From Dioscorea cayenensis subsp. rotundata (Eukaryota > Streptophyta > Magnoliopsida > Dioscoreales > Dioscoreaceae): 64,000 nt of DNA. Within the stretch, counting starts at the first letter, position 1. Each line of letters opens with the position of its first letter. Positions 10,491 to 26,490 of this stretch are shown here, one piece after another. The translations under genes were made by a program, and so were the position numbers. The stretch covers positions 2,666,001 through 2,730,000 of the forward strand of contig NC_052475.1 of assembly GCF_009730915.1 (NCBI RefSeq). Direction: 5' to 3'. The notes under the pieces are model-generated. The model had not been told where the DNA came from and made no database searches. It was given only the letters and a program-made list of their open reading frames with translations.

Positions 10491-10837
10491 ACAATCTCAA
10501 TTCGACACCTTAATCCAAAATGACGAGAATGCATGCCAATCCACTGGTAGAGGAGCTGACCCAATTGATTGGAATGCATTCACATCTAATTAGCTTATTC
10601 TACCACCACATTACGAAAAATAAAAATCTCCACAAAAAGCAATCCAATTTAAGAAAAATCCAAAGGAATTTTTTATATATATATATGAGTGAGTCTTTGA
10701 CTCTTTTCAAAACTTGCCAGGGACCTTGAAGTCCTTTTCTCTGTGTTTTACTGACCAATTATATCTTATTAGTAGTAAAATATGTTAGAGTTATCTTAAT
10801 TTATTTATTTAAATATATGTTAGTGTTTTACTGACCA

Positions 10838-11329
10838 ATAGGTTTGTAACTGTAGCAACAGTAGTCTTACTGTTGAAGAGCATGCTTGTACTTAATGGGT
10901 TTGGTAAGTGTCATGTTAGCTACATGACAATTAGGTATGTGTCTTGTAAGCTATAGTTAAGTTTGGTTTGAGTCTTGTCATAAATAGTTAGGACTTGGAG
11001 CCTATATAAGGCACCCTTGGGTTGTAAGGGAGGAGATTCATATTCATATCCATATCCCGAACACACATCTCCTCCTCCTAAGGATAACATCATCTCATCC
11101 CTTCCCTTGTATCCACCCATCCTAAGTTATGCAATAAAGAAGTCCCTTATTTGTGAATACATCTATTGTCTCTTTCTAGCTCTCATGCTCTCTTCTCTCT
11201 AAACTCTTTCCGTAAGATTCCGCATTAACCGTTACTTCACCCCGAATGAACCCCGGAGTAAGTTGAACGGCATCCCCAACATCCTCACCTCCGTCTAGGA
11301 GCTGGCGCAACCCCGGCTGTAGGATCTAG
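10838..11329 (+). promoter_or_regulatory. Viral promoter / terminal-redundancy block, copy 1 (unit A)
   Basis: TATA box CTATATAAGG at 11002-11011 and AATAAA at 11133-11138, about 120 bases downstream, as in pararetroviruses that read past the poly(A) signal once. A pyrimidine-rich tract (ctctcatgctctcttctctc) follows. The block repeats almost identically at 17687 and 21234. The left edge at about 10838 is where similarity with the other copies starts. Confidence 0.8.
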
Positions 11330-11341
11330 TGGTATCAGAGA
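11330..11341 (+). promoter_or_regulatory. Minus-strand primer binding site, copy 1
   Basis: TGGTATCAGAGA matches the usual plant pararetrovirus site complementary to the 3' end of initiator tRNA-Met (TGGTATCAGAGC type), with a difference at the last base. It lies about 200 bases after the poly(A) signal. Confidence 0.8.
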
Positions 11342-12508
11342 TACAGTAACCTTCCTCGAAAACCTCAAGGTAATGTTTACCATGCAGGGGTAAAACCCTT
11401 AACAAGGTCCCCAACATGTAGATAGTAAGTTTTACCTTGGTAGTATAGCTTTTATTTGATCCATGAACCCATATCTAAAAATCTAAAAAATGAGTTTTGT
11501 AAAGATCTTTGAAAAATATTTTGAGCTTGAAAAATGGATCTTTTATGTAAAAAGAGTTTTTCTAACTAATCTAAGAGTAAGACAAACTGGAGAACACCAA
11601 ACAGTACCCGTCTGAAGGACAGGAGGTCCGTTTAGGGGAAAAGGAGTGTGGAGGTAAGTCTGAACTCTGAAAGTTGGAAAGATGAACTCTTATATATTAA
11701 AAGATAATCATGATGATCTCAAAAAATTACTCTTCTAAGTAATTATGCAAAGTGGAACACTCGAGGGCTTTTGGAAAGCTGGAGACTCTACAAGAGTGAC
11801 CTAGTACATGAGCAGGGAAAGGTTAGTACACTCTAAGACGGTAAGGTTGAACGAGCCGACATGAGAATGTCCATGGTGAAAAGGAGTTTAATTTTAAAAA
11901 AACCCATAAAAACTAAAAAACCAACAAAAACCAAAAACATGTTTTTACTTACAATAATTATGGATCAAATAGAGTTATTTACCAAGTCTAACTTCTATTA
12001 TATTACATGTTGTGGATCTTGTTATTGCATAAGTATTCTCTTCTCTTAAGAATTCTCTTATTTAGAAGTAAATTTTATTTTACTGCAAAATAGAAGTAGA
12101 TTATATTTTCTGCAAACCGTATTTCATCTAAAATTTAAAAACAAATTAAATCAACAAGAAACAATTAAATCAACAACAAAATATCAAATCAACAATATCA
12201 ACAAAATATCAAAAAGAAAGAAATCGTAAATCATTGAATTAAATTAAAACATCAATGAATCAAATTCTAAAAGAAATATTGGAAAAAATAATTATAATAC
12301 AAACAATATGTATTACAATAATAATATTAATTATGATAAATATCATGGTAATAATAAGAAATCTAAATATTTTAAAATGAAAACTAAAAAGAATATCCAT
12401 CAAGAGATAAAAATAATAACTAAAATATTAATGGTATTAAAAGTATCAATACAAGTTATTAAAGAAATAATAGAAAGTTTAATAGAATCATAAACATAAA
12501 AACTAAAA
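11342..12508 (+). other. Long viral leader of unit A with hairpin and splice donor
   Basis: More than 1.1 kb of leader without a long ORF. A hairpin of about 9 bp lies at 11611-11635 (GGAC/GTCC core). It is followed by a near-perfect plant 5' splice site, GAG|GTAAGT, with the GT at 11654-11655. Both are kept in the third block (donor GT at 22050-22051). After about 12048 the sequence is unique to unit A and extremely A-rich. The short ORFs here show no recognised domain. Confidence 0.65.
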
Positions 12509-12715
12509 ATGGATATAAAAATGGAAGAAATAATAGAAAAAATATATCCAGGATATGACTGGACAATTGATTTTGAAGAATTACCAGAAGATATTGATGA
12601 TATAAAATTTTTAATAAAATGCAGATATGATAAATATAACTATCCAACAAAAATACAAACAGAAGAAAACTACATAATGGAAGAAATTAATAAGATGAAG
12701 AATATCAAGAAATGA
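12509..12715 (+). CDS. Small viral ORF upstream of the coat protein, 68 residues
   Basis: Acidic and lysine-rich, starting at an ATG after a long A-rich leader. Its stop overlaps the next start in an ATGA (12712-12715), the arrangement by which badnaviruses and rice tungro bacilliform virus link consecutive ORFs for leaky scanning. No domain recognised. It may be an independent small ORF, or the N-terminal acidic part of the coat protein separated by a frameshift. Confidence 0.45.
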   Translation: MDIKMEEIIEKIYPGYDWTIDFEELPEDIDDIKFLIKCRYDKYNYPTKIQTEENYIMEEINKMKNIKK

Positions 12716-13977
12716 TAAAACAATTAGAAGAAATTAATATAGAAGAAATAATGATGAATGTTGAATCAAGAGCAAGTAATATTTCAGATAATCAAAGAGC
12801 AGAAAGTTCAAATACTAGAACAATAGTAACACCAACAACAATTGAAAGAACTAGCAGAACAACACAACCTTTACAATTTCCATCACAACATAATTTCAAT
12901 TCAACCAATTACTATGAAGAAAATTTTAAAACATATAAAGGAAAACCAGATCCTTTAGAAGTTATAAAAACAATGCCTAAACAAAATAATGAAGGAAGCA
13001 TGTTAGTACTAAGTACAGTCCATCCTCAAAAATGGCCCGAATTAATAGATAGATGGGAATCAGATGCCATAAATACATTAGAAAGAATACCCCATACATT
13101 AGACTCAATAGGAACAACAAATTTTATTGAAAATCTTTTAGGAACTACTGCAAGAGATTTACTAAATAGTTGAAAAATTAATTATTCAGAAGAATATCAA
13201 TATATGGTACAAATGGCTGATAACCCATATAATGTAACAGGACAAATTAGACAAATCATATTAGGAACTAATCCATCTAGAGGAGATACACTATTACAAG
13301 ATATGGCAGCTAGAGATTTAGAAAGACTCCAAATTCAAAACTTTGGTGAAATTGTTCAATTTAGTCAAGCATACATAACATTAGCAGCTAAAACAGGAAG
13401 AGCATTCACAAATAATGAATTAACTAAAAAATGGTTTAATAAGCTCCCTAAACCTTTAGGAGATATTATTTTAAAAAATTGGATTGAAAAAGGACATGAA
13501 AATTTAACTGGAATAGGGCCAGCAATAATGTTTACATTTAATTATTTAAAAGATAAATGTTTAGAAGCTGAAGCAAACAGACAAATATCAAATTACAGTT
13601 ATTGTAGTAAAATATATGTACCAGCCCTGAATAATGAATGGAAAAAACAAAAAGGATTAAAAAGAAGCCAATACTTTAAAAAAGGAAGACCTAAACCGAA
13701 TCATGTTAAAAAATTTAAAACACATAAACCACCAGGAAAATGTAAATGTTATTTATGTGGAATAGAAGGACATTATGCAAAAGAATGTAAAAATTCACAA
13801 GTAAATAAAGAAAGATTAAATATGTATCAAAATCTAGAAATGCATGATGAAATTGATATAGTAAGTATAGCTAGTAATGATAGTGAAAATGATAGTGATG
13901 TATGTAGTATTTTTGATGGAAATGAAGGACCAAATTTCTTTCTAGAAGAAACAGAAAATCCTTATAAAACAATATGA
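12712..13977 (+). pseudogene. Viral coat protein region with zinc knuckle, one in-frame stop
   Basis: Caulimovirid coat-protein-like region. After a low-complexity Ser/Thr/Asn-rich N-terminus come the family-type stretches WPELIDRWE and FIENLLG, a central helical domain, a basic segment, and a CCHC knuckle (CYLCGIEGHYAKEC, C-x2-C-x4-H-x4-C) at about 13749-13790. An acidic C-terminus follows. A TGA at 13171-13173 interrupts the frame and the same frame reopens directly, so this is a nonsense change rather than a boundary. The capsid role is inferred from the order of domains and the knuckle. The frame then closes at 13977, and the next domain lies in another frame, implying an indel in 13978-14040. 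Confidence 0.8.
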
Positions 13978-14087
13978 TGTATAAAGAAATAATAAACTAA
14001 TTTCTGAAAAGAATCAAAAACCTAGAAGACGAAATTAAAAAATTACAAAAACAATTAGAAAATAAAAAACAAAGTCAAAATAATACA

Positions 14088-16073
14088 ATGACCTATGGAA
14101 AAAATAAAAATTTAATAGAAACAGAAAGTGCAATGACCATTTATTATAAAGATAACAATTTACTTAATATTGATTTTATCTTAGAATTTAAAGATGGATT
14201 TAAAATTTCAGAAAAAGGAATAATTGACACAGGAGCAAGTAAAACTTATATAACAGAAAATATTGTTCCATCAAAATATAAAGAACTAACAACACAAAAA
14301 GCATTAGTAAATGATGCCTTTGGAAATCAATTAATTTTAAATGAAAAATTAATAGATTGCTCAATCATATTAAATAATCAAAAATATAATTTACCATATA
14401 CTTGGATTAAACCAATAACAAATGAAAATTCTATAAAATTTTTATTATGCATGAATTTTATAAAAAATCAAACATGAGGAATATTTATTCAAGAAGAAAA
14501 GGTAATGCTATTTAATAAAGTAAATCATTTAGAAACAACAACAACAGTACAATCTTTAGCATATCTATCAGAAATTGACATCCCATTAGATGAAGAAATT
14601 GAAGTAATAAATTATATTGAATTAAATCAGATAACTCCTTTAAAAGATAAAATTGAACCTATATTAGAAGATCTAAAGAAAGATGGAACTATAGGAGAAA
14701 ATCCAATTAAAAACATAAACAGAACAAATGAGAACTGTAAATTAGAAATAATAAATCCAGATATCAGAATAACCTGTCCAGTAACAAAGGCAACCCCATA
14801 TGAACAAGAAGAATTCAATAAACATATAAAAGAACTAATGGATTTAAACATAATAGAACCAACCAAAAGTCCTCATAGAACTAGAGCATTTATAGTAAAT
14901 AAACATAGTGAAATAATTAGAGGAAAAAGCAGAATGGTATTCAATTATAAAAGACTAAATGATAATACAGAAGATGACAGATATCCATTACCAAATAAAG
15001 AAGCATTAGTAAACAAAATCAAAGGAACAAACATTTATAGTAAATTTGATTTAAAAAGTGGTTTTTGGCAAGTTAAATTAGAACCATAAAGTAGAAAATG
15101 GACAGCATTTGTAACACATAATGGGCATTATGAATGGAAAGTTATGCCATTTGGATTAAAAAATGCTCCTCAAATCTTTCAAAGAAAAATGGATAATATA
15201 TTCAGAAACGATTCATTTATTGTCACTTATATTGATGATATCTTAGTATTTAGCAATAATATAAAGGAGCATATCAATCATTTAAAAATATTTTTTCATA
15301 AATGCAAACAACATGGTCTAGTATTATCTGAAAAGAAGATGAAAATTGGGTGCAGAAAAATAGAATTTCTAGGAGTAATTATTGGAAAAGGAGAAATAGA
15401 ATTACAGAAACATATAGCAAGCAGTATTTTAGAAATGCCAGATAAATTGGAAGGATTAAAACAAATTCAATCATTCTTAGGAAAATTAAACTATGCAAGA
15501 AACTTCATACCAAATTTAAGTAAATTGGCTGGACCATTATATAATAAAACAAAACAAAATGGTGAAAGGAAATTCAACAATGAAGACATTAAACTTGTTC
15601 AAAAAATCAAACAAATTGTAAGCAACATAAAACCTTTAGAATTACCACCATTAAATTCATACTTAATAATTGAATTAGATGGTCGTATAGGTGGTTGGGG
15701 AGCTGTTTTAAAATTTAGACCAAAAAAGGAATCAACAAAAAATGAAGAAAAAATAAGCAGATATGACAGTGGAACTTACAATACTAAAGTAACAAGTACA
15801 GATGCAGAAATCTTAGCATGTATTAAAGCTATGGAAAAATTTAAATTATTTGTTATAGAAAGTAAAGAATTTCTATTAAGAACTGACTGTCAAGCTATTG
15901 TATCTTTTTATCATAAAAAGTCAAAAAATAAATTATCTACAAACCGATGGTTAACATTCATAGATTATATAGTCGGAAATGGATTTCATGTTATTATTGA
16001 ACATATTAAAAGAAAAGATAATATTATAGCAGATCAATTAAGTAGGATTATACAAGAAAACAAACTTAATTGA
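14088..16073 (+). pseudogene. Viral aspartic protease, reverse transcriptase and RNase H, two in-frame stops
   Basis: The frame opens upstream of 14088 with a short coiled-coil-like Lys/Glu/Gln segment. The protease motif DTGAS starts at 14226. Reverse transcriptase occupies about 14750-15560, with VMPFGLKNAPQIFQ at about 15141 and the catalytic YIDD at 15228-15239. RNase H follows at about 15670-16060, with acidic residues in ELDGRIGGWG, TDAEILA and LRTDCQA. No integrase follows, which separates this from a Ty3 element. Stops at 14475-14477 (TGA) and 15087-15089 (TAA) fall inside one continuous frame. The TGA at 16071-16073 looks like the natural end. Enzymes not functional as they stand. 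Confidence 0.92.
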
Positions 16074-16080
16074 ACACAAA

Positions 16081-16159
16081 AGACTTGTCCATCCGCATAG
16101 TAAGACTGTGGCTGCAAAAACCAGCAGGTCCATTCGCGTTCTTGCTATGGTGGGAGTCT
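16081..16159 (+). ncRNA. Putative structured RNA element, copy A
   Basis: Nested helices can be drawn: P1a 16081-16085 with 16155-16159 (AGACT/AGTCT); P1b 16089-16091 with 16151-16153 (CCA/TGG); P2 16096-16105 with 16140-16149 (CATAGTAAGA/TCTTGCTATG, one G-U); P3 16112-16115 with 16124-16127 (CTGC/GCAG). The same fold is kept with different bases at 19429-19509 and 19544-19623. It starts 8 bases after the polymerase stop and ends about 73 bases before the next ORF. Function unknown; I matched it to no RNA class I know. Confidence 0.65.
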
Positions 16160-16220
16160 GGATCACCATCATCCAAAAATACAAAATATAAAATATAAAA
16201 ATTTATAAAACTAACAGGAT

Positions 16221-16232
16221 TCTGTTTTGCAG
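16221..16232 (+). promoter_or_regulatory. Splice-acceptor-like site before the downstream ORF of unit A
   Basis: tctgttttgcag is directly followed by ATG at 16233. It could pair with the leader donor at 11654 to give a spliced mRNA whose first large ORF is the downstream protein, as known for rice tungro bacilliform virus ORF4. The matching site in unit B is at 19716-19727. Confidence 0.6.
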
Positions 16233-17624
16233 ATGTCTAAAGTTCCTTCAGCACAAGGAAACCCTTTTCCTACCCTTCAATTCTCAACTATCCCACAAAA
16301 ACATAAATTCCGTACTACTAATATCTTGGACCATGAACAACAAACTCTTCTTGACAATCTTTGGAATAATAGAAACAATACCCAATATCTCCAATCCATG
16401 AAGAACCTTAGTCAGTATTTCCAAGACCAAAATGCAAAACCAAGCCACATTATCCCATACAACTCTACATCACATCAACCCCAAACAAAAGTTTATTCTC
16501 CACCAGCCGTTGAACACTTTATTGCCCAAGACCGAACAATAAAATTACTAGAAACTGAAATTGAGGTTAAGAAAAAAGAAATTGAAGAACTCAACAAAAA
16601 GCTCCAAAAGGTAGCTGAAGACTACAAAGAAATATCTCAGTATATGATTCAAAATCAGAAACAAAAAGAAGAAACTCTTGAAAGATTCCCTCCAGTTATC
16701 CAAGATGTACAACAAGTAATTCTACAGAAAGTTCTCAAAACAGCCTATGAAGATTTTGTCCAGACTCAATTACTTCTCCGAGAAATGGCCAAAGATAATG
16801 TACATCCTCATGGTATGGCACTCTCCGTTGATCTTTACCAAGATTCAGCACATCGCCATCAAGACTGTCAATGTGAAAAAAGCTTCTTCATTGTCAAAGC
16901 ATCTTTTGACCTATCTTCCTGGATTGACCATGACATAAAAGGGATATCATTCAGTATTGAAAGGCTACTACAATATGGCATGATCAGCAGACTGATACTT
17001 ACAAGGCCAAAACAAATCAAGTTCTTACAGAAGCACTGGAAACTTTCATATCTACTGTCAAAAATATTCAAGAAGCTAAAACTGCCTGCAGTCCTCAATC
17101 TCTCAATCAAGTCAATTCCATCAGGCTATGAAGAAGGATACTTAGAAAATGCAAGACATCAAATCACTATGGAATTGTTCATGAAGTCTGTTCCATATCA
17201 ACTACATATTCCAACTGACGTATTCACAAAAGAAATGCAGTCATTCCCTACTCCAGTCACTGAACAACTTTCCTTATGGCGAGCATTCACCTTCATCAGT
17301 ATCAGACAATCTTATTATCATCCCTTGGCAATGGAAGATTCCACTATGAAAGTTTATTCAAGAAAAGAGGTACTTCCTATAGACATTCCATTTGCAAACC
17401 TCAAATATAATAAACATGCAGCAGTTCAACACTTCAAGGACATAAATGCAACCATCTCACTTCAACACATGGGAGACTATTCTTCAAGCTATCTTCCAAT
17501 AATTGAGGATCAAGACAACGAACTTCCTTTGGGTATTCCTAATGGTCATTTACCAAACGACTCAGAAGATTCTCTATTCCCTTCACATGAAGACATAACT
17601 ATTGCTCATCTTTTGGTGGACTGA
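16233..17624 (+). CDS. Downstream viral protein of unit A, 463 residues, function unknown
   Basis: Open from ATG 16233, which follows a cag acceptor. The in-frame TTG six bases earlier was not used. A Pro/Gln/Asn-rich N-terminus is followed by a coiled coil at about residues 105-150 (EIEVKKKEIEELNKKLQ). A core domain follows with a Cys/His cluster (HRHQDCQCE, about residues 210-218). A conserved segment (SIPSGYEEGY...ARH) comes next, then an acidic C-terminus. It is clearly homologous to the broken ORF at 19730-21127. Codon and base use are less A-rich than the polymerase region upstream. Candidate roles such as movement, transmission or transactivation cannot be told apart from sequence alone. 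It is the only long viral frame here without a break. Confidence 0.75.
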   Translation: MSKVPSAQGNPFPTLQFSTIPQKHKFRTTNILDHEQQTLLDNLWNNRNNTQYLQSMKNLSQYFQDQNAKPSHIIPYNSTSHQPQTKVYSPPAVEHFIAQDRTIKLLETEIEVKKKEIEELNKKLQKVAEDYKEISQYMIQNQKQKEETLERFPPVIQDVQQVILQKVLKTAYEDFVQTQLLLREMAKDNVHPHGMALSVDLYQDSAHRHQDCQCEKSFFIVKASFDLSSWIDHDIKGISFSIERLLQYGMISRLILTRPKQIKFLQKHWKLSYLLSKIFKKLKLPAVLNLSIKSIPSGYEEGYLENARHQITMELFMKSVPYQLHIPTDVFTKEMQSFPTPVTEQLSLWRAFTFISIRQSYYHPLAMEDSTMKVYSRKEVLPIDIPFANLKYNKHAAVQHFKDINATISLQHMGDYSSSYLPIIEDQDNELPLGIPNGHLPNDSEDSLFPSHEDITIAHLLVD

Positions 17625-17686
17625 AGCAGTGTTGTTTATTTTTATTATGTAAAGGAGTCGGTGTTTGTTTTTTTTAGTGTGTAAAA

Positions 17687-18173
17687 TAGGTTTGTAACTG
17701 TAGCAACAGTAGTCTTACTGTTGAAGAGCATGCTTGTACTTAATGGGTTTGGTAAGTGTCATGTTAGCTACATGACAATTAGGCATGTGTCTTGTAAGCT
17801 ATAGTTAAGTTTGGTTTGAGTCTTGTCACAAATAGTTAGGACTTGGAGCCTATATAAGGCACCCTTGGGTTGTAAGGGAGGAGATTCATATTCATATCCA
17901 TATCCCGAACACACATCTCCTCCTCCTAAGGATAACATCATCTCATCCCTTCCCTTGTATCCACCCATCCTAAGTTATGCAATAAAGAAGTCCCTTATTT
18001 GTGAATACATCTCTTGTCTCTTTCTAGCTCTCATGCTCTCTTCTCTCTAAACTCTTTCCGTAAGCTTCCGCATTAACCCTTACTTCACCCCCGAATGAAC
18101 CCCGGAGTAAGTTGAACGGCATCCCCAACATCCTCATCTCCGTCTAGGAGCTGGCGCAACCCCGGCTGTAGGA
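17687..18173 (+). promoter_or_regulatory. Viral promoter block, copy 2 (start of unit B), lacking primer site
   Basis: TATA box at 17850-17859 and AATAAA at 17981-17986; nearly identical to copies 1 and 3 up to 'ggctgtagga'. There the other copies continue into the primer site and leader, but this one changes abruptly at about 18173 into A-rich coding sequence. About 1 kb or more of leader is therefore missing, with the primer site and splice donor. The shared block extends upstream too: 17610-17686 matches 21159-21233. Confidence 0.75.
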
Positions 18174-18538
18174 AAGGATTAATAGATTCAACAGATATAA
18201 ATTTAATTGATGATTTAATAAGAAACTCAATTAAATATACAATAAAAGAAAATAGAAGCTTAAAAGAAGAATTAAAAGCAAAACAATGTATGTGGTTAAA
18301 AGGAGTTAAAAGATATATAACTCTAAGAGATCAAATCAACCATCAAGCAGAATCATTAATAGAAGTAAAATTCAAATCAAAAGAAAAAGATGAAAATGGA
18401 AAATCCATCTGGAAACCTACACAAATAAAATATAAAGAATTTCACCAAGATGAATATTTAAAAGAACAAAATAGATTATGGAATTATAGATCAAGATTAA
18501 AAAATGAATATGATTCTATAAATATTTGTTATGAATAA
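18173..18538 (+). pseudogene. Unit B ORF 1, 5'-truncated at the promoter junction
   Basis: The frame is open from the junction at about 18173 to the TAA at 18538, and the first ATG is at 18290. This suggests the original start was lost in the leader deletion. The product is rich in Lys, Glu and Asn with an apparently alpha-helical pattern and contains a WKPTQIKYKEF stretch. I do not recognise a domain. A remnant of a viral protein with no counterpart in unit A is the simplest reading; a movement protein fragment is possible but unsupported by any motif I can see. Confidence 0.5.
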
Positions 18539-18544
18539 AATAAA

Positions 18545-18979
18545 ATGAATAAACAAACTTACAACCTAGATATAAATCCAAAGTATCTATTAGAACAATA
18601 CAATCAAACTGAAAATTTTGAAAAATGTGAACATAAATTTGAACCATTTAAGGTTAATTATAAAACAAAATGTGATAAATGTTATAAGTTCCATATAACA
18701 AAACATAGAGTAACGTGCTCAAAATGTGAGTTATCATTATGTAGAAAATGTGTATCTGATTTATGTGATTTTACTTTTGAAGAAAAAGAAATAGAAAGAT
18801 CAAATAATAAATATAGTCAAGATAAAGAAATAATTAATCAATTATTAAAAAGCATTAAAACTCTTGAAGAAGAAATAGAAGATTTAAAAGAACAATTAAA
18901 AAATAAAAAAGAACAAAATAAGGGAAAAGGTATAATCATTCAAGAAATTGAGGAATTAACAGAAAATATTATAACATGA
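18545..18979 (+). CDS. Unit B ORF 2: Cys/His zinc-binding and coiled-coil protein, 144 residues
   Basis: A Cys/His cluster occupies about residues 28-75: one CEH, then three C-x2-C pairs (CDKC, CSKC, CRKC), a spacing like C1/DC1-type or other treble-clef zinc domains. A strongly charged coiled coil follows (about residues 95-135, LEEEIEDLKEQLKNKKEQ). Its stop overlaps the next start in an ATGA at 18976-18979. No homologue occurs in unit A. Function unknown; RNA or protein binding is inference from the fold type. It may be intact, but it sits in an inactive locus. Confidence 0.6.
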   Translation: MNKQTYNLDINPKYLLEQYNQTENFEKCEHKFEPFKVNYKTKCDKCYKFHITKHRVTCSKCELSLCRKCVSDLCDFTFEEKEIERSNNKYSQDKEIINQLLKSIKTLEEEIEDLKEQLKNKKEQNKGKGIIIQEIEELTENIIT

Positions 18980-19431
18980 CTAAGAAGAAAGTAAATAAGG
19001 AAAACACATTAGAATTAGAAAAAATGATTAAAGACTTAAAAGAATTTAAAGATAAAATAATCTTTAAATATCCAATAACTCATTCAAGAAGTAAAATAGT
19101 AGATTCTCTACAAAACAACATAGACTTAATTACTAAAAGAAAAAGAAGATTCAATGGAGAAAATAATGAAATAAAAGAGAAAAAATTAACAATGTCTTAG
19201 AGGATTACAAAAATAGAAAAAGAAATAAAAGAAATCCAAGATAATATAAAGCAAAGGGAAATTAATGAATATTTAAAACAACAAGAAATAATGCATTATT
19301 CATCTTTACAAAAAGAATTTAATTTTTGTTCATCTCCTTCCCTAAATTTAGGACTAGAAACATCACAACCAACTGAATCTCCGTTATTCCTATCTCTTTG
19401 GGAAAAATGTAATTCAAATATTACCCCATAG
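18976..19431 (+). pseudogene. Unit B ORF 3, helical Lys/Glu-rich protein with one in-frame stop
   Basis: Starts at the ATG of the ATGA overlap with ORF 2. A TAG at 19198-19200 interrupts it, after which the same frame stays open to a TAG at 19429-19431, about 151 codons in all. Composition is Lys/Glu/Ile-rich and probably coiled-coil, ending in a Ser/Pro-rich tail. No family recognised. The terminal TAG is also the first base triplet of structured RNA copy B1, so coding and RNA signals abut. Confidence 0.5.
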
Positions 19432-19509
19432 TTTGTCCATTCGCATTGGAGAAAACTGTGACTGCAAAGCCAGCAGGTTCATTTGCGTTTTCTTTAATTG
19501 TGGGAACTA
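19429..19509 (+). ncRNA. Putative structured RNA element, copy B1
   Basis: Same fold as copy A with changed bases: P1a 19429-19433/19505-19509 (TAGTT/AACTA), P1b 19437-19439/19501-19503 (CCA/TGG), P2 19445-19456/19487-19498 (12 pairs, two G-U), P3 19462-19465/19473-19476 (CTGC/GCAG). The unpaired TGT and the CTGTG after P2 are kept. Confidence 0.65.
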
Positions 19510-19543
19510 TGTAACCAAGTCCTAAAAGGAAATAAACAAACAA

Positions 19544-19623
19544 AGGTTTGTTCATCCGAATAAAAAGAGCTGTGGCTACAAAAACAGTAGGTCCATACGC
19601 GTCTCTTTTTATGGTGAAAACCT
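19544..19623 (+). ncRNA. Putative structured RNA element, copy B2
   Basis: Third copy, 34 bases after B1. P1a 19544-19548/19619-19623 (AGGTT/AACCT), P1b 19552-19554/19615-19617 (TCA/TGA, against CCA/TGG in the others), P2 19560-19569/19603-19612 (ATAAAAAGAG/CTCTTTTTAT), P3 19576-19579/19587-19590 (CTAC/GTAG, against CTGC/GCAG). Both strands of P1a, P1b and P3 change together. Confidence 0.65.
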
Positions 19624-19715
19624 GGCTATCTTTATACCCCAATACATGCTAAAAGCATGAAAGATTATATCTCCAACACATGCAAAAACATGAAACTCTA
19701 TTTAGCTAACAAGTT

Positions 19716-19727
19716 TATTTTTTGCAG
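19716..19727 (+). promoter_or_regulatory. Splice-acceptor-like site before the downstream ORF of unit B
   Basis: A T-rich tract ending ttttttgcag lies two bases before the ATG at 19730. It parallels 16221-16232 in unit A. Confidence 0.6.
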
Positions 19728-19729
19728 AT

Positions 19730-21127
19730 ATGGCAGGAAAAAATTTCTATAACCAACCTTCTTCCTTTGAACCTCAATTGAACATCCCAATCTTTCCTTT
19801 GAATTCTACTCTGAAATTTAGAACACAAGCCAACCTCAATCTTCCTCAACAAATAATTCTTGACAACCTTTGGGACAATAAACACGACCCAAAAACTCTT
19901 ATCTCCTTGTTCCATTCCCTAGCAAAATATTTTCATCAGACAAATGAAAAAATCCAAACTCCACCTCATCTGCCCTTACCAGAATCATCCAATATAAAAT
20001 TTTCTTTAAAACCTCAAACACTTAACTACATGGTAGAACAAGAAAAGAAAATTAAAGTATTAGAAGCAGAAATGTCCAACAGAAATGAAGAAATCATTCT
20101 GATCAAAGCCCAACTCCAACAAATTACAAAAGAAGCTGAAGAAATGAAGACAGTTCTTATTGAAGAAAGAAAACAAAGAACAGAGAAATTTGAACTGTTC
20201 CCAGAACCAATAGCAGAAGTTAAATAGCTCATTTTCAAGAAAGTAATGGCAACTCAGTATAACCAATTCATCTCTGAACAAGAAATACTGAGGCAACTTG
20301 CAAAAGAAGAAATTCTTCCGGCAGGATTTGCAATAGCAGGAAATGTTCTCAGAGAAATAGCCCACAAGGATTCTGGATGCCAATGTGAAGAAGGATTCAC
20401 TGCAGTTAAATGCTCCTTAGACATATCCCAATGGCATGATCAAGAAATCAGTGGTGTTCAGATAAAAGCTATCAACCTCTTCAAACATGGATACCTGTGC
20501 AGAATAATGCTTACAAGTCCAGAGCAAGCAAGCTTCCTGAATGAATACTGGCAACTGATACATCTTCTACACAAGTTCTTCAAAGCTCTTGGATCACATA
20601 TTGACGGGTATGTCAATTTAGAACTAAACTCAATCCCTCCTTGCTATGATGAAGGTTATCCTGATGAAGCAAGACATCATATCAAGATTACTCTCCTTCG
20701 CCATCATAAACCTGAGCAAGAAAGGATAAATCCTATTCGACTGGAAGATATGATCATTCCAGGACATATTAAAAGACAAATGAAGCTATGGTGAGCATGT
20801 GCAATCTCCACTGATTGGAAGAGAACTTACCCCACAATTGCTGACAACCAAAGATGTCAAATGGTGCTGGAAACAAAGATCATGAAGGTATATGTTGACC
20901 AGTACATGTTCCCTATGTACTGTCCTTTTCCAAGTCTTATTTTACAGATGCCAGCTACTGAATCTCACATGAAGCAAGTCTGTTCATGGGCAAGAGAATA
21001 TCGTTTTGGAGATTATTCAACACTAAGCATTCCTGCAGATATTTTAATGGTACCAAGTCCAGCTGACTCTCCTGAAGGACTAGAAGACATTGCTGAAGAA
21101 AACTTAGCCAACATGATGGAAGGCTAG
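19730..21127 (+). pseudogene. Downstream viral protein of unit B, broken paralogue of 16233-17624
   Basis: Collinear with the unit A protein throughout: N-terminal LDNLWDN, coiled coil at about residues 100-150, Cys/His cluster (CQCE), SIPPCYDEGYPDEARH, and an acidic tail. Two stops break one continuous frame: TAG at 20225-20227 and TGA at 20792-20794. Both fall where the paralogue has sense codons. Sequence divergence from the A copy is large compared with the near identity of the promoter blocks. The two proteins therefore diverged before these units were joined, rather than by duplication in place. Confidence 0.8.
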
Positions 21128-21233
21128 GAAATCTCTACTAAGAAGGTCTCCGACATCTTTTGGTGGACTAAAGCAGTGTTGTTTATTTTTATTATGTAAA
21201 GGAGTCGGTGTTTGTTTTTTTTTAGTGTGTAAA

Positions 21234-22444
21234 ATAGGTTTGTAACTGTAGCAACAGTAGTCTTACTGTTGAAGAGCATGCTTGTACTTAATGGGTTTGG
21301 TAAGTGTCATGTTAGCTACATGACAATTAGGTATGTGTCTTGTAAGCTATAGTTAAGTTTGGTTTGAGTCTTGTCATAAATAGTTAGGACTTGGAGCCTA
21401 TATAAGGCACCCTTGGGTTGTAAGGGAGGAGATTCATATTCATATCCATATCCCGAACACACATCTCCTCCTCCTAAGGATAACATCATCTCATCCCTTC
21501 CCTTGTATCCACCCATCCTAAGTTATGCAATAAAGAAGTCCCTTATTTGTGAATACATCTATTGTCTCTTTCTAGCTCTCATGCTCTCTTCTCTCTAAAC
21601 TCTTTCCGTAAGATTCCGCATTAACCGTTACTTCACCCCGAATGAACCCCGGAGTAAGTTGAACGGCATCCCCAACATCCTCACCTCCGTCTAGGAGCTG
21701 GCGCAACCCCGGCTGTAGGATCTAGTGGTATCAGAGATACAGTAACCTTCCTCGAAAACCTCAAGGTAATGTTTACCATGCAGGGGTAAAACCCTTAACA
21801 AGGTCCCCAACATGTAGATAGTAAGTTTTACCTTGGTAGTATAGCTTTTATTTGATCCATGAACCCATATCTAAAAATCTAAAAAATGAGTTTTGTAAAG
21901 ATCTTTGAAAAATATTTTGAGCTTGAAAAATGGATCTTTTATGTAAAAAGAGTTTTTCTAACTAATCTAAGAGTAAGACAAACTGGAGAACACCAAACAG
22001 TACCCGTCTGAAGGACAGGAGGTCCGTTTAGGGGAAAAGGAGTATGGAGGTAAGTCTGAACTCTGAAAGTTGGAAAGATGAACTCTTATATATTAAAAGA
22101 TAATCATGATGATCTCAAAAAATTACTCTTCTAAGTAATTATGCAAAGTGGAACACTCAGGCTTTGGAAACTGGAGACTCTACAAGAGTGGCCTAGTACC
22201 GCAGACAGGGAAAGGTTAGTACACTCTAAGACGGTAAGGTTGAACGAGCCGACATGAGAATGTCCATGGTAAAAAGGAGTTTAATTTTAAAAAACCCATA
22301 AAAACTAAAAAACCAACAAAAACCAAAAATATGTTTTTACTTACAATAATTATGGATCAAATAGAGTTATTTACCAAGTCTAACTTCTATCATATTACAT
22401 GTTGTGGATCTTGTTATTGCATAAGTATTCTCTTCTTTTAAGAA
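21234..22444 (+). promoter_or_regulatory. Viral promoter and leader block, copy 3
   Basis: TATA box 21398-21407, AATAAA 21529-21534, primer site 21726-21737, leader hairpin, and splice donor GT at 22050-22051. Collinear with 10838-12048 apart from scattered substitutions and short indels (clustered around 22155-22205). Viral similarity ends near 22444, where host-like repeat DNA starts. Confidence 0.8.
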
Positions 22445-24859: not shown

Positions 24860-25771
24860 TCATCCATGTTTTTGATTCTCACAAATGGTTGCACCCACCT
24901 TGCCAATAGGCAACTTCATTGGACCAAATGGTGAATCCACATACAAATACCCCTTCAGAGTATAACCAATACCTTTTCCACTAATCATATTCCAAAGGGA
25001 ATTACCAAAGTCCTTAGGCCTAAATGAAATTGGAATCTCAATAGTACCAGTTCCATGCTTTTCAATTTTTTCAGATTTCTTCAGCTCCACAGATCCAATG
25101 TTCATATCAGAAAGCCAGATTTCACAGTCCAAACCAGTCAGTCCAAGTTCAAAGTCATTTTTGTTCTCTAATTTCAGGTGAAGTGTGGCAACTGTTTCCT
25201 CAAAAGTGAACTTATCAAAACTTATCTTCACTAAATCAATATCAGGTTTGCATGGAATGGGAATCTCACCTGTCTTCTCTAGTGGCAGGGTCAGTTTTCC
25301 AAAAATGGGTATATCCACAATAAACTCAACCTTGAGTTTGTAAGGGATGATGCTTCCAGGCCTGATATCAAGAAGAATGTTCTTGATGTCATTAAAGATC
25401 AAAGTCACAGGAATTTTGACAGTTTCTGAACCATGTCCATGGATTGTTCCTGCATCAGGAATCAATCCAGAAACAAGCTTCCTTCCATCACTCTCAACTG
25501 AATAATTGATATCAGTCAAAGGAATTGGCAATGGAGTGGGATTTGTGACAAGTATGTCCACAACAATCTCAACCTTTTCCAGACTAATCTGGGAAATGTG
25601 GATTCCAGTGACCTCTACAGTTGGTTTTCCAAGTATTAACTCCTCAACCTTCTCTTCTACTTCATGGATGAATTCTTTAACTTTTTCAATGATTCCACCC
25701 TTGTCTCCCTCCTTATGCTCTTGCTCCTTCACTTTACTTGCAAGTACTTCAGGCTTATCAGATGATGCCAT
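24860..25771 (-). CDS. LEA_2 / WHy-domain protein (LEA14-like), paralogue 2, 303 residues
   Basis: Same family and layout as 5044-6836. The start is the Met after the cag acceptor (MASSDKPEV). Two LEA_2/WHy repeats follow, with NPTPLPIPL and LENKNDFELGL as landmark motifs. The C-terminus differs: instead of an Asp run plus spliced Glu-stop, the frame meets a TGA at 24862-24860, right where a GATGAT acidic run would begin. In another frame the sequence continues to a GATGAT|gtatgt donor at about 24813, paired with an acceptor homologous to the one in paralogue 1. The coding end has therefore shifted by a small indel. The main domain is complete, so the protein is probably functional. Confidence 0.87.
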   Translation of the reverse strand: MASSDKPEVLASKVKEQEHKEGDKGGIIEKVKEFIHEVEEKVEELILGKPTVEVTGIHISQISLEKVEIVVDILVTNPTPLPIPLTDINYSVESDGRKLVSGLIPDAGTIHGHGSETVKIPVTLIFNDIKNILLDIRPGSIIPYKLKVEFIVDIPIFGKLTLPLEKTGEIPIPCKPDIDLVKISFDKFTFEETVATLHLKLENKNDFELGLTGLDCEIWLSDMNIGSVELKKSEKIEKHGTGTIEIPISFRPKDFGNSLWNMISGKGIGYTLKGYLYVDSPFGPMKLPIGKVGATICENQKHG

Positions 25772-26490
25772 ACCTGAAAAACACCACCACATAAAACATT
25801 CAGATCATTTGTCTTGATAAAACAACTAGCTTTTCTAACTTCAGAATTAAGCAACAAAAACCAAACTTTTTTCAGCAGATCTCAACTACTAAGATAATAC
25901 AATACATTCTGGACTATTTACCCAGATCTAAAACTGCAATCTGATTGAAATATTAAATAAAACTGTTAACCTTGAATATTCTCAAATGCTTGCAAATTAA
26001 ACTCCTTTTTCTCTCCGAGCAGCAACTCAATGCACTACAATACTTTATGAGTATTTCACTTCACAATACATGAATTCATCTCATGACAACAAGGATTTAA
26101 AGGAAAAAAAAAAAAGAACAAAAAGAAAACAAAATCTAACATAGAAAAGGAGTAAAAAAAAGGCCATGGATCAACAGAATGACAAGAACAAAAAGACTAA
26201 TGATAGAGAAATTTAGAACTAAAACACAACTCCAAAACTTCAACCACACAAAATCATCCTCCAGTTCCAACAAACAATAAGAATCAACAATTAAACTAGT
26301 CCAATCTCATCAAAGCACACCAAAATCAAGCATCCATTTCAGCAAGAAAAATTTAAAGAAAATAAAAAACAACTAATTAAGCATGAAGTAAAGCTTCGAA
26401 GATCGATCCAGAGGGGATGAGAGATAAGAAATAGAGACCGAGATCGAGATCGAGAGATAAACGTCGGAGATGGTGCTCCGGTGAATCCGA
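25772..26490 (-). promoter_or_regulatory. Leader region of LEA_2 paralogue 2
   Basis: The acceptor just upstream of the ATG is conserved with paralogue 1. The purine-rich 5' UTR (gatcgagatcgagag) lies at about 26400-26460. At the place of the paralogue 1 donor (GAAG|gtttgg) the sequence is GAAG followed by cttta, so the 5' splice site appears changed or moved. Confidence 0.5.

Follow-up and report, generated by a model that had tools for sequence, protein, structure and literature searches.

Which step in the life of a plant pararetrovirus would call for a compact RNA hairpin repeated directly before its last gene? This question is raised by a 64-kb stretch of the genome of the yam Dioscorea cayenensis subsp. 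rotundata (positions 2,666,001 to 2,730,000 of contig 5; hereafter, the window), in which an endogenous caulimovirid array lies at approximately 10837 to 22400. In both units of the array, A and B, the order is an upstream stop codon, one or more copies of an ~80-nt element (c1 in unit A; c2 and c3 in tandem in unit B), a predicted branch point and 3' splice site, and an open reading frame (ORF) that we call ORF X (Table 1). A first-pass annotation of this DNA had proposed that the three copies form a structured viral RNA. Its observation proves stronger than it was worded, and it missed what is in our view the most informative feature of the element, a two-fold symmetry within each copy. We tentatively read the element as a conserved cis-acting RNA of this endogenous caulimovirid lineage, which may bind a dimeric factor that holds genomic RNA back from splicing, exports it, or both.

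Fold and covariation of the window copies

The three copies follow one segment order, P1a-GU-YCA-UHYGM-P2-KG-UGR-P3b-loop-P3b'-GU-YCA-UHYGC-P2'-KG-UGR-P1a', with P1a of 6 bp, P1b of 3 bp, P2 of 10, 12 and 11 bp (c1, c2 and c3), P3a of 3 bp and P3b of 4 bp. Across the copies, 81 of the 81 proposed core-helix pairs are standard, and the positions and helices given at first pass were exact; the inner hairpin P3 is present as described and longer than it had been drawn, as a GUGR/YCAU helix continues the stack beyond a GU bulge. In a MAFFT alignment of the three copies, 98.8% of cells are paired and 12 of 28 pairs show two-sided changes, against 44.6 to 54.9% and at most 2 pairs when the partner is slid by 1 to 3 columns. 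Two-sided changes affect 4 of the 6 pairs of P1a, and P2 is completely paired in each copy with very different sequences among them. The YCA/UGR helices covary at one position, which is C-G twice and U-A once in the outer helix and G-C twice and A-U once in the inner one.

Compared with 200 dinucleotide shuffles, the folds gave z-scores of -2.98, -2.56 and -3.52 (c1, c2 and c3), with 1, 3 and 2 shuffles equal or better. RNAalifold, run unguided on the three copies, recovered P1, P2 and P3b (29 pairs, 11 with two-sided changes), and pair probabilities support P1a and P2. The program favored an alternative inner pairing beside P3b, which is less consistent, with pairs 32-57 and 33-56 changing on one side or breaking. 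A covariance model built from the three copies, a check suggested at first pass, found these three only at high score in the window (91 to 101 bits), and the next match reached 12.4 bits. Thirty-eight viral contigs matching a P3-region DNA pattern scored at most 20.4 bits with this model, as partial matches, and were taken as chance.

The element had been called undescribed, and Rfam 15 indeed gave 0 matches in the window at gathering thresholds; at E <= 10, two weak matches appeared between 16060 and 19660, both outside the elements. No description of an element of this kind was found in open-licence PubMed Central (PMC) full texts, a scope that most subscription papers and bioRxiv lie outside.

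Two-fold symmetry

Each window copy has pseudo-two-fold symmetry. One internal-loop motif, in which 5'-GUYCAUHYGM-3' faces 5'-KGUGR-3', is present twice, and the outer and inner loops are related by rotation about P2, with both GUYCAUHYGM sequences on the same strand. When compared over 15 positions with a consensus made from the outer loops only, the inner loops have 0, 1 and 1 mismatches (c1, c2 and c3), and 1, 1 and 2 of 5000 shuffles matched as well in a structure-aware test. The latter took the place of a cruder, structure-free test of direct half-to-half repetition (best 10-mer), in which 2, 118 and 382 of 500 shuffles were as good and which was significant for c1 only. A repeated tccat(c/t)cgc, formerly suggested as a tertiary contact, reads better as the second copy of the symmetric motif. 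With 10 to 12 bp, P2 would set the two modules about one helical turn apart. Among the 104 elements assembled below, both half-sites are recognized at no more than one mismatch in 78 and at least one half-site in 96; none of 20,000 random draws from the window (element overlaps skipped) matches both.

Copies elsewhere in the genome

We searched the genome (584 Mb in 2249 contigs) with the elements themselves and obtained 61 candidates of the A type, with 40 scored matches, and 135 of the B type, with 40 scored matches that span nearly the whole c2-c3 query; these numbers are lower bounds. Most of the matches represent close relatives that have integrated into the genome; pairs are broken in several of the A copies, as would follow from decay after integration, and the A-type copies by themselves add almost no covariation. 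Across 29 further A loci, identity to the window is 94 to 100% in the element, 72 to 100% in the spacer, 90 to 97% upstream (exceptions, 81% and 56%) and 83 to 98% downstream (exception, 58%). The upstream sequence is 81 to 97% identical to the pol end of the window in 28 of these 29 loci (56% at L049). Since loci found by the element bias such a comparison of identities, loci selected by ORF X were added.

A search with a piece of ORF X-B, the ORF X of unit B, gave 152 matches (484 candidates), with identities of 36 to 100% among the matches listed. The upstream stretches of 40 of them were examined, favoring divergent ones with a match near the N-terminus. Elements occur in 29 of the 40 (one in 5, two in 16 and three in 8 loci), and all 61 lie on the sense strand of ORF X. 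Where examined, the copies thus stand in viral context, given the pol-end-like sequence upstream of 28 of the 29 A loci and these 61 sense elements; the worry at first pass, that they might be found only outside such contexts, is not borne out. Identity between A and B elements is 66 to 73%, versus 33 to 36% for the corresponding ORF X pieces. Where ORF X is 36 to 38% identical (L139, L140 and L142), each locus has one element with AUC/GAU in P1b instead of YCA/UGR, changed yet paired.

Arrays of three begin with a more divergent element, followed by a c2-like element, a c3-like element and the ORF, with L134 irregular. This third, more diverged element was seen at L130, L131, L132, L134, L135, L151, L152 and L155; in the upstream copies aligned, its outer half-site is largely kept and its inner half-site has drifted.

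The window copies (3), the B-pair loci (40 elements in 20 pairs) and the ORF X-selected loci (61) together make 104 matches (103 distinct rows). In their alignment, which was fitted to the model and so favors the fold, and in which many rows are of common ancestry, 93.9% of 2868 cells are paired and 24 of 28 pairs show two-sided changes, compared with 43.8 to 52.3% and 10 to 13 pairs after sliding. When the rows are reduced to 28, 14 and 10 representatives (identity cut-offs of 85, 75 and 65%), 91.0, 92.2 and 93.0% of cells are paired, versus 44 to 51% slid. The covarying helices noticed in three copies thus hold as more copies are aligned. Furthermore, RNAalifold returned the same P1-P2-P3 arrangement from separate alignments of two divergent classes. 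In the class of 8 sequences, 1 of 22 pairs shows two-sided changes, and in that of 4 sequences, 7 of 28 do; several pairs are broken in one or two sequences.

Splice-site context

As first annotated, the element comes after a viral stop codon and ahead of a predicted splice acceptor in both units; the first three bases of c2 are the in-frame TAG that closes the upstream unit B frame, in which another TAG occurs earlier, at 19198-19200. In units A and B alike, CTAAC begins 22 nt before the predicted exon start (TTTTGCAG/ATGTCT and TTTTTTGCAG/ATATGG, respectively, the slash marking the junction). The leader holds a strong donor, GGAG/GTAAGT, 3' of the tRNA-Met site, and GTAAGT is kept in 9 of the 10 leader contexts found. 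The sequence signals therefore match the arrangement of rice tungro bacilliform virus (RTBV; Tungrovirus), a leader 5' splice site with a 3' splice site just before the post-pol ORF; in that virus, P4 is made from a spliced RNA joining the leader, with its upstream ORF (uORF), to the distal post-pol ORF IV (PMC5902531). The passages of PMC5902531 on RTBV mention no structured element before this acceptor, and the comparison is one of description, not of sequence.

Given a leader donor and an acceptor 3' of the elements, the latter would lie within an intron removed to make the ORF X mRNA (in unit A, toward the 3' end of a predicted intron of ~4.5 kb), and they would be present in the unspliced (pre)genomic RNA alone. 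Relative to the ATG, the predicted exons of A and B begin in different phases, which makes a conserved uORF fusion unlikely. No copy of a spliced leader-ORF X junction was present among 18 ORF X-A starts (up to 4 mismatches) in the loci examined.

The pattern CTRAY...TGCAG follows the element in 25 of the 29 further A loci, and at least 2 of the other 4 (L042 and L043) carry ACAG instead of GCAG. A similar, strict acceptor pattern stands 3' of the elements at 15 of the 20 B-pair loci and at 13 of the 29 element-bearing ORF X-selected loci, 4 of whose stretches end within 110 nt, versus 35 of 3000 random 160-nt stretches of the window. A relaxed pattern, found at all 20 B-pair loci and at 21 of the 29 ORF X-selected loci, also matched 1232 of 3000 random stretches and was set aside as non-discriminating. 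In unit B, the interval from c3 to the acceptor (19640-19700) holds two small tandem hairpins of the CATGC-A5 type, whose number and loops vary at L075, L079 and L084.

The viral array

Three promoter/intergenic stretches, whose repeat blocks are 99 to 100% identical, enclose units A and B. Unit A encodes, in order, a caulimovirid coat domain (PF22909) with a zinc knuckle, a protease, a reverse transcriptase-RNase H (RT-RNase H) and ORF X-A (Pfam E-values: PF22909, 2.1e-33; PF21024, 2.5e-06; PF00078, 4.8e-20; PF17917, 2.3e-09). The coat domain, protease, RT-RNase H and tRNA-Met primer-binding site (PBS) place the array in the Caulimoviridae, and the start of the PBS is identical to that of the site quoted in PMC6135502. 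Unit B comprises a Cys/His-rich coiled-coil ORF, one further frame and the broken ORF X-B. No movement protein was recognized among the frames scanned in the array, and no caulimovirid RT relative was found among IMG/VR viral contigs.

ORF X-A and ORF X-B are homologous (33% and 36% identity for the first two pieces of ORF X-B), and neither reaches the cut-off of any Pfam family. The N-terminal half of ORF X-A may be coiled-coil-like, judging from its sequence. A word-based search of limited sensitivity in a database of 5.8 billion proteins found one Dioscorea alata protein, 68% identical to ORF X-A; it is labeled "Retrovirus capsid N-terminal protein," and Pfam shows no capsid domain in ORF X. 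AlphaFold, given ORF X-A together with one relative, returned an unusable model (mean pLDDT [predicted local distance difference test], 35.7). The name TAV was dropped for this protein in favor of ORF X, as Pfam gives it no support.

With shared intergenic blocks and an ORF X in each unit, units A and B look like a two-component genome of the sort proposed for florendoviruses. The array resembles the bipartite florendoviruses in its two kinds of unit, as these have an intergenic region more than 90% identical between both and occur in compound insertions (PMC4241990); it differs in its gene sets and in that an ORF X and one or more elements are present in each yam unit. Dioscorea nummularia-associated virus (DNUaV; Dioscovirus) is likewise a yam caulimovirid, with an ORF 4 of similar size after pol, but its ORFs 3 and 4 are one nucleotide apart, which leaves no such intergenic room, and its ORF 4 has a TAV domain (PMC6135502).

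Unit B of the window has no leader of its own, because the shared stretch passes into coding sequence near 18173. The break itself falls at 18165-18180, ~5 nt short of the expected tRNA-Met site and directly followed by coding sequence, which suggests joining at the minus-strand gap. Between the coat protein and protease regions of unit A, a 92-nt piece (13981-14072) is 78% identical to part of the unit B coiled-coil ORF (18822-18913), perhaps a trace of gene rearrangement between the units. Near the array, an ORF on the minus strand (24860-25792) with an LEA_2 domain (PF03168, 3.2e-36) is probably a host gene.

Table 1. Features of the caulimovirid array, in window coordinates
Feature	Position	Strand	Remarks
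tRNA-Met PBS start, TGGTATCAGAG	11330..11340	+	Sequence match
Predicted 5' splice site in leader, GTGTGGAG/GTAAGTCT	11646..11661	+	GT at 11654
Caulimovirid RT-RNase H frame, ends just 5' of c1	15144..16073	+	Frame and Pfam; stop 16071-16073
Element copy c1, unit A, 79 nt	16081..16159	+	Begins 7 nt 3' of the pol stop; covariance model, 94.5 bits
c1 outer half-site, GTYCATHYGM	16087..16096	+	3' strand KGTGR 16149-16153
c1 inner half-site, 5' strand	16128..16137	+	3' strand KGTGR 16107-16111
Predicted branch point CTAAC and 3' splice site TTTTGCAG, unit A	16211..16232	+	Exon would begin at ATG 16233
ORF X-A, post-pol ORF	16233..17624	+	Below cut-off of every Pfam family
Shared promoter/intergenic stretch, two repeat blocks	17685..18173	+	Other copies from 10837 and 21233
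Unit B ORF, Cys/His-rich and coiled-coil parts, 5' of c2	18545..18979	+	Weak Pfam matches only
Element copy c2, unit B, 81 nt	19429..19509	+	Covariance model, 91.1 bits
c2 outer half-site, 5' strand	19435..19444	+	3' strand 19499-19503
c2 inner half-site, 5' strand	19477..19486	+	3' strand 19457-19461
Element copy c3, unit B, 80 nt	19544..19623	+	34 nt 3' of c2; covariance model, 101 bits
c3 outer half-site, 5' strand	19550..19559	+	3' strand 19613-19617
c3 inner half-site, 5' strand	19591..19600	+	3' strand 19571-19575
Predicted branch point and 3' splice site, unit B	19706..19727	+	22-nt spacing as in unit A
ORF X-B, homologous to ORF X-A but broken	19730..21127	+	Pieces 19730-20227, 20246-20794 and 20861-21127

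Discussion

How might such an element act? Each copy would form a long hairpin whose halves repeat one module (helix, GU bulge, YCAU/GUGR helix, bulge and P2), the two modules being rotated by 180 degrees about the central helix. Placed at the 3' end of the predicted intron of the last gene, the copies would be borne by unspliced RNA alone. A dimeric protein could dock on both modules and mark the intron-containing RNA, which would then escape splicing and/or leave the nucleus to serve as genome and as polycistronic mRNA. Recognition by a protein is suggested by a loop module that is conserved and duplicated on exchangeable stems, a dimer would fit the two-fold rotation at a spacing of one helical turn, and restriction to unspliced RNA would let the element decide the fate of that RNA.

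In architecture, the element comes closest to the constitutive transport element (CTE) of type-D retroviruses. That stem-loop has two-fold symmetry and, according to one proposal, is recognized by a platform formed from an NXF1:NXT1 dimer, which exports the RNA in unspliced form (PMC4330390). In Mason-Pfizer monkey virus (MPMV) and simian retrovirus 1 (SRV-1), the CTE is one long stem-loop with two internal loops in two-fold symmetry, contained in the unspliced RNA of a reverse-transcribing virus (PMC4330390, PMC7551171), and the yam element likewise has two near-identical loops related by two-fold rotation in one stem. Unlike the CTE, it measures ~80 nt rather than ~130 to 175 nt, belongs to a plant host, lies inside a predicted intron before the last ORF and occurs in tandem copies; the likeness is one of architecture. 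The loop sequence AAGACA, quoted for the gamma-CTE of murine leukemia virus (MLV) in PMC7551171, is present in 1 of the 104 elements and in 0 of the 3 window copies. Consequently, we regard the element as resembling a CTE in layout and do not class it as one, because its loop sequence differs, its host is a plant and binding by NXF1 would rest on analogy.

If the factor were viral, the mode of action would be closer to that of the Rev response element (RRE) and Rev. In human immunodeficiency virus type 1 (HIV-1), a protein made from spliced RNA acts on an intronic structure in the unspliced RNA. ORF X, which would itself be made from spliced RNA, is the viral candidate ligand, and with it the logic would be that of RRE/Rev, on a far smaller RNA. 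By extension, this pararetrovirus lineage may have evolved its own transport or intron-retention element, namely one to three tandem dimer-docking hairpins in the last-gene intron, as a plant counterpart of the CTE or RRE with a Rev-like ORF X. This extension is rather doubtful.

Several observations weigh against a dimer-docking, retention or export element. In the predicted ensembles, the inner P3a pairs of c1 are a minority (probability, 0.15 to 0.26) relative to an alternative UGUGG/UCGCG pairing, compared with 0.41 to 0.48 in c2 and 0.86 to 0.92 in c3; as the inner pairing of c1 and c2 is partial, the inner module may be dynamic. The outer P1b pairs are weak in c2 (0.36 to 0.40; c1, 0.85 to 0.87; c3, 0.96 to 1.00). 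Strict symmetry is not universal, since 26 of the 104 elements fail in at least one half at no more than one mismatch and the first elements of three-element arrays keep the outer half-site only, the inner one having drifted. Folded singly, 12 divergent copies in most cases do not outperform shuffles (z, -2.53 to +0.47); the minimum-energy folds of L155, L131 and L132 differ outright, that of L140:330-409 differs in part, and those of L139 and L142:343-422 lack P1a. Moreover, 11 of the 40 ORF X-selected loci have no element. The strict acceptor pattern is missing in 10 of these 11, but also in 16 of the 29 element-bearing loci, and acceptor loss therefore does not account for the loci without elements. 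One of them, L143, has the acceptor and gave, with model R2 and filters off, only a match of 14.0 bits (E, 0.29) on the opposite strand. Plants are also not known to have a clear NXF1 orthologue.

Splicing control and packaging, two of the roles proposed at first pass, fit the anatomy as well and are serious rivals, which sequence alone cannot separate from retention or export. As a splicing silencer only, stable hairpins 50 to 80 nt 5' of the branch point would either impede use of the 3' splice site or recruit a repressor of splicing; they would thereby set how much genomic RNA there is relative to ORF X mRNA and would play no part in export. In both window units and in the further loci counted above, the elements do stand 5' of a predicted branch point and acceptor, and structured RNAs implicated in plant alternative splicing are on record (PMC12218528). 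A purely steric hairpin, however, needs no conserved duplicated loop, and the half-site motif is kept where the stems vary; we consider silencing alone unlikely, if worth keeping in mind.

Less probable again is a packaging or genome-selection signal, by which the coat or zinc-finger protein would tag the unspliced RNA of both units for the capsid or for reverse transcription. The element is indeed in both RNA units and, should the predicted intron exist, confined to unspliced RNA; unit A encodes a coat domain with a zinc knuckle, and two-fold symmetry fits a dimeric capsid protein; against this, copy number varies for no obvious reason (one in unit A of the window and two to three in B-like loci).

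A translation element serving ORF X after the upstream stop, by reinitiation, as a shunt landing site or as an internal ribosome entry site (IRES), is improbable. It would suit the closeness of c1 to the unit A stop and the overlap of c2 with an in-frame stop, but c2 lacks the ATG that c1 and c3 have at a shared position, and other caulimovirids reach their post-pol ORF by splicing or a subgenomic promoter (PMC5902531). The shunting and reinitiation of the first-pass annotation are weak for the further reason that the predicted 3' splice site separates the element from ORF X.

We give little credence to a neutral relic whose fold was kept merely through recent duplication: the A-type copies compared, 94 to 100% identical and poor in added covariation, would agree with it, but compensatory changes run among the A, B and divergent lineages and the elements are more alike than the adjoining ORF X proteins. 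Self-cleavage, which a compact nested fold with conserved bulges might recall, finds no support and is the least credible of all, as no ribozyme family appears in the Rfam results above and tandem copies would cut the genomic RNA repeatedly.

Preferring, then, a retention or export element, we note that the retention and export of unspliced genomic RNA in plant pararetroviruses look open in the reviews cited here. A review of viral RNA export (PMC7551171) covers pararetroviruses through hepatitis B, and no word in its text begins with "plant"; in the parts of PMC5902531 on the subject, the only candidate is P6 of cauliflower mosaic virus (CaMV), which perhaps assists nuclear export of the unspliced pregenomic RNA. 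A compact, repeated and covarying RNA beside a 3' splice site offers a small bait for a viral or host factor. The element also provides a marker for annotating endogenous caulimovirids, as it is still recognized where ORF X has diverged to 36 to 38% identity. If true, a plant counterpart of the CTE or RRE would show how plants export intron-containing RNA.

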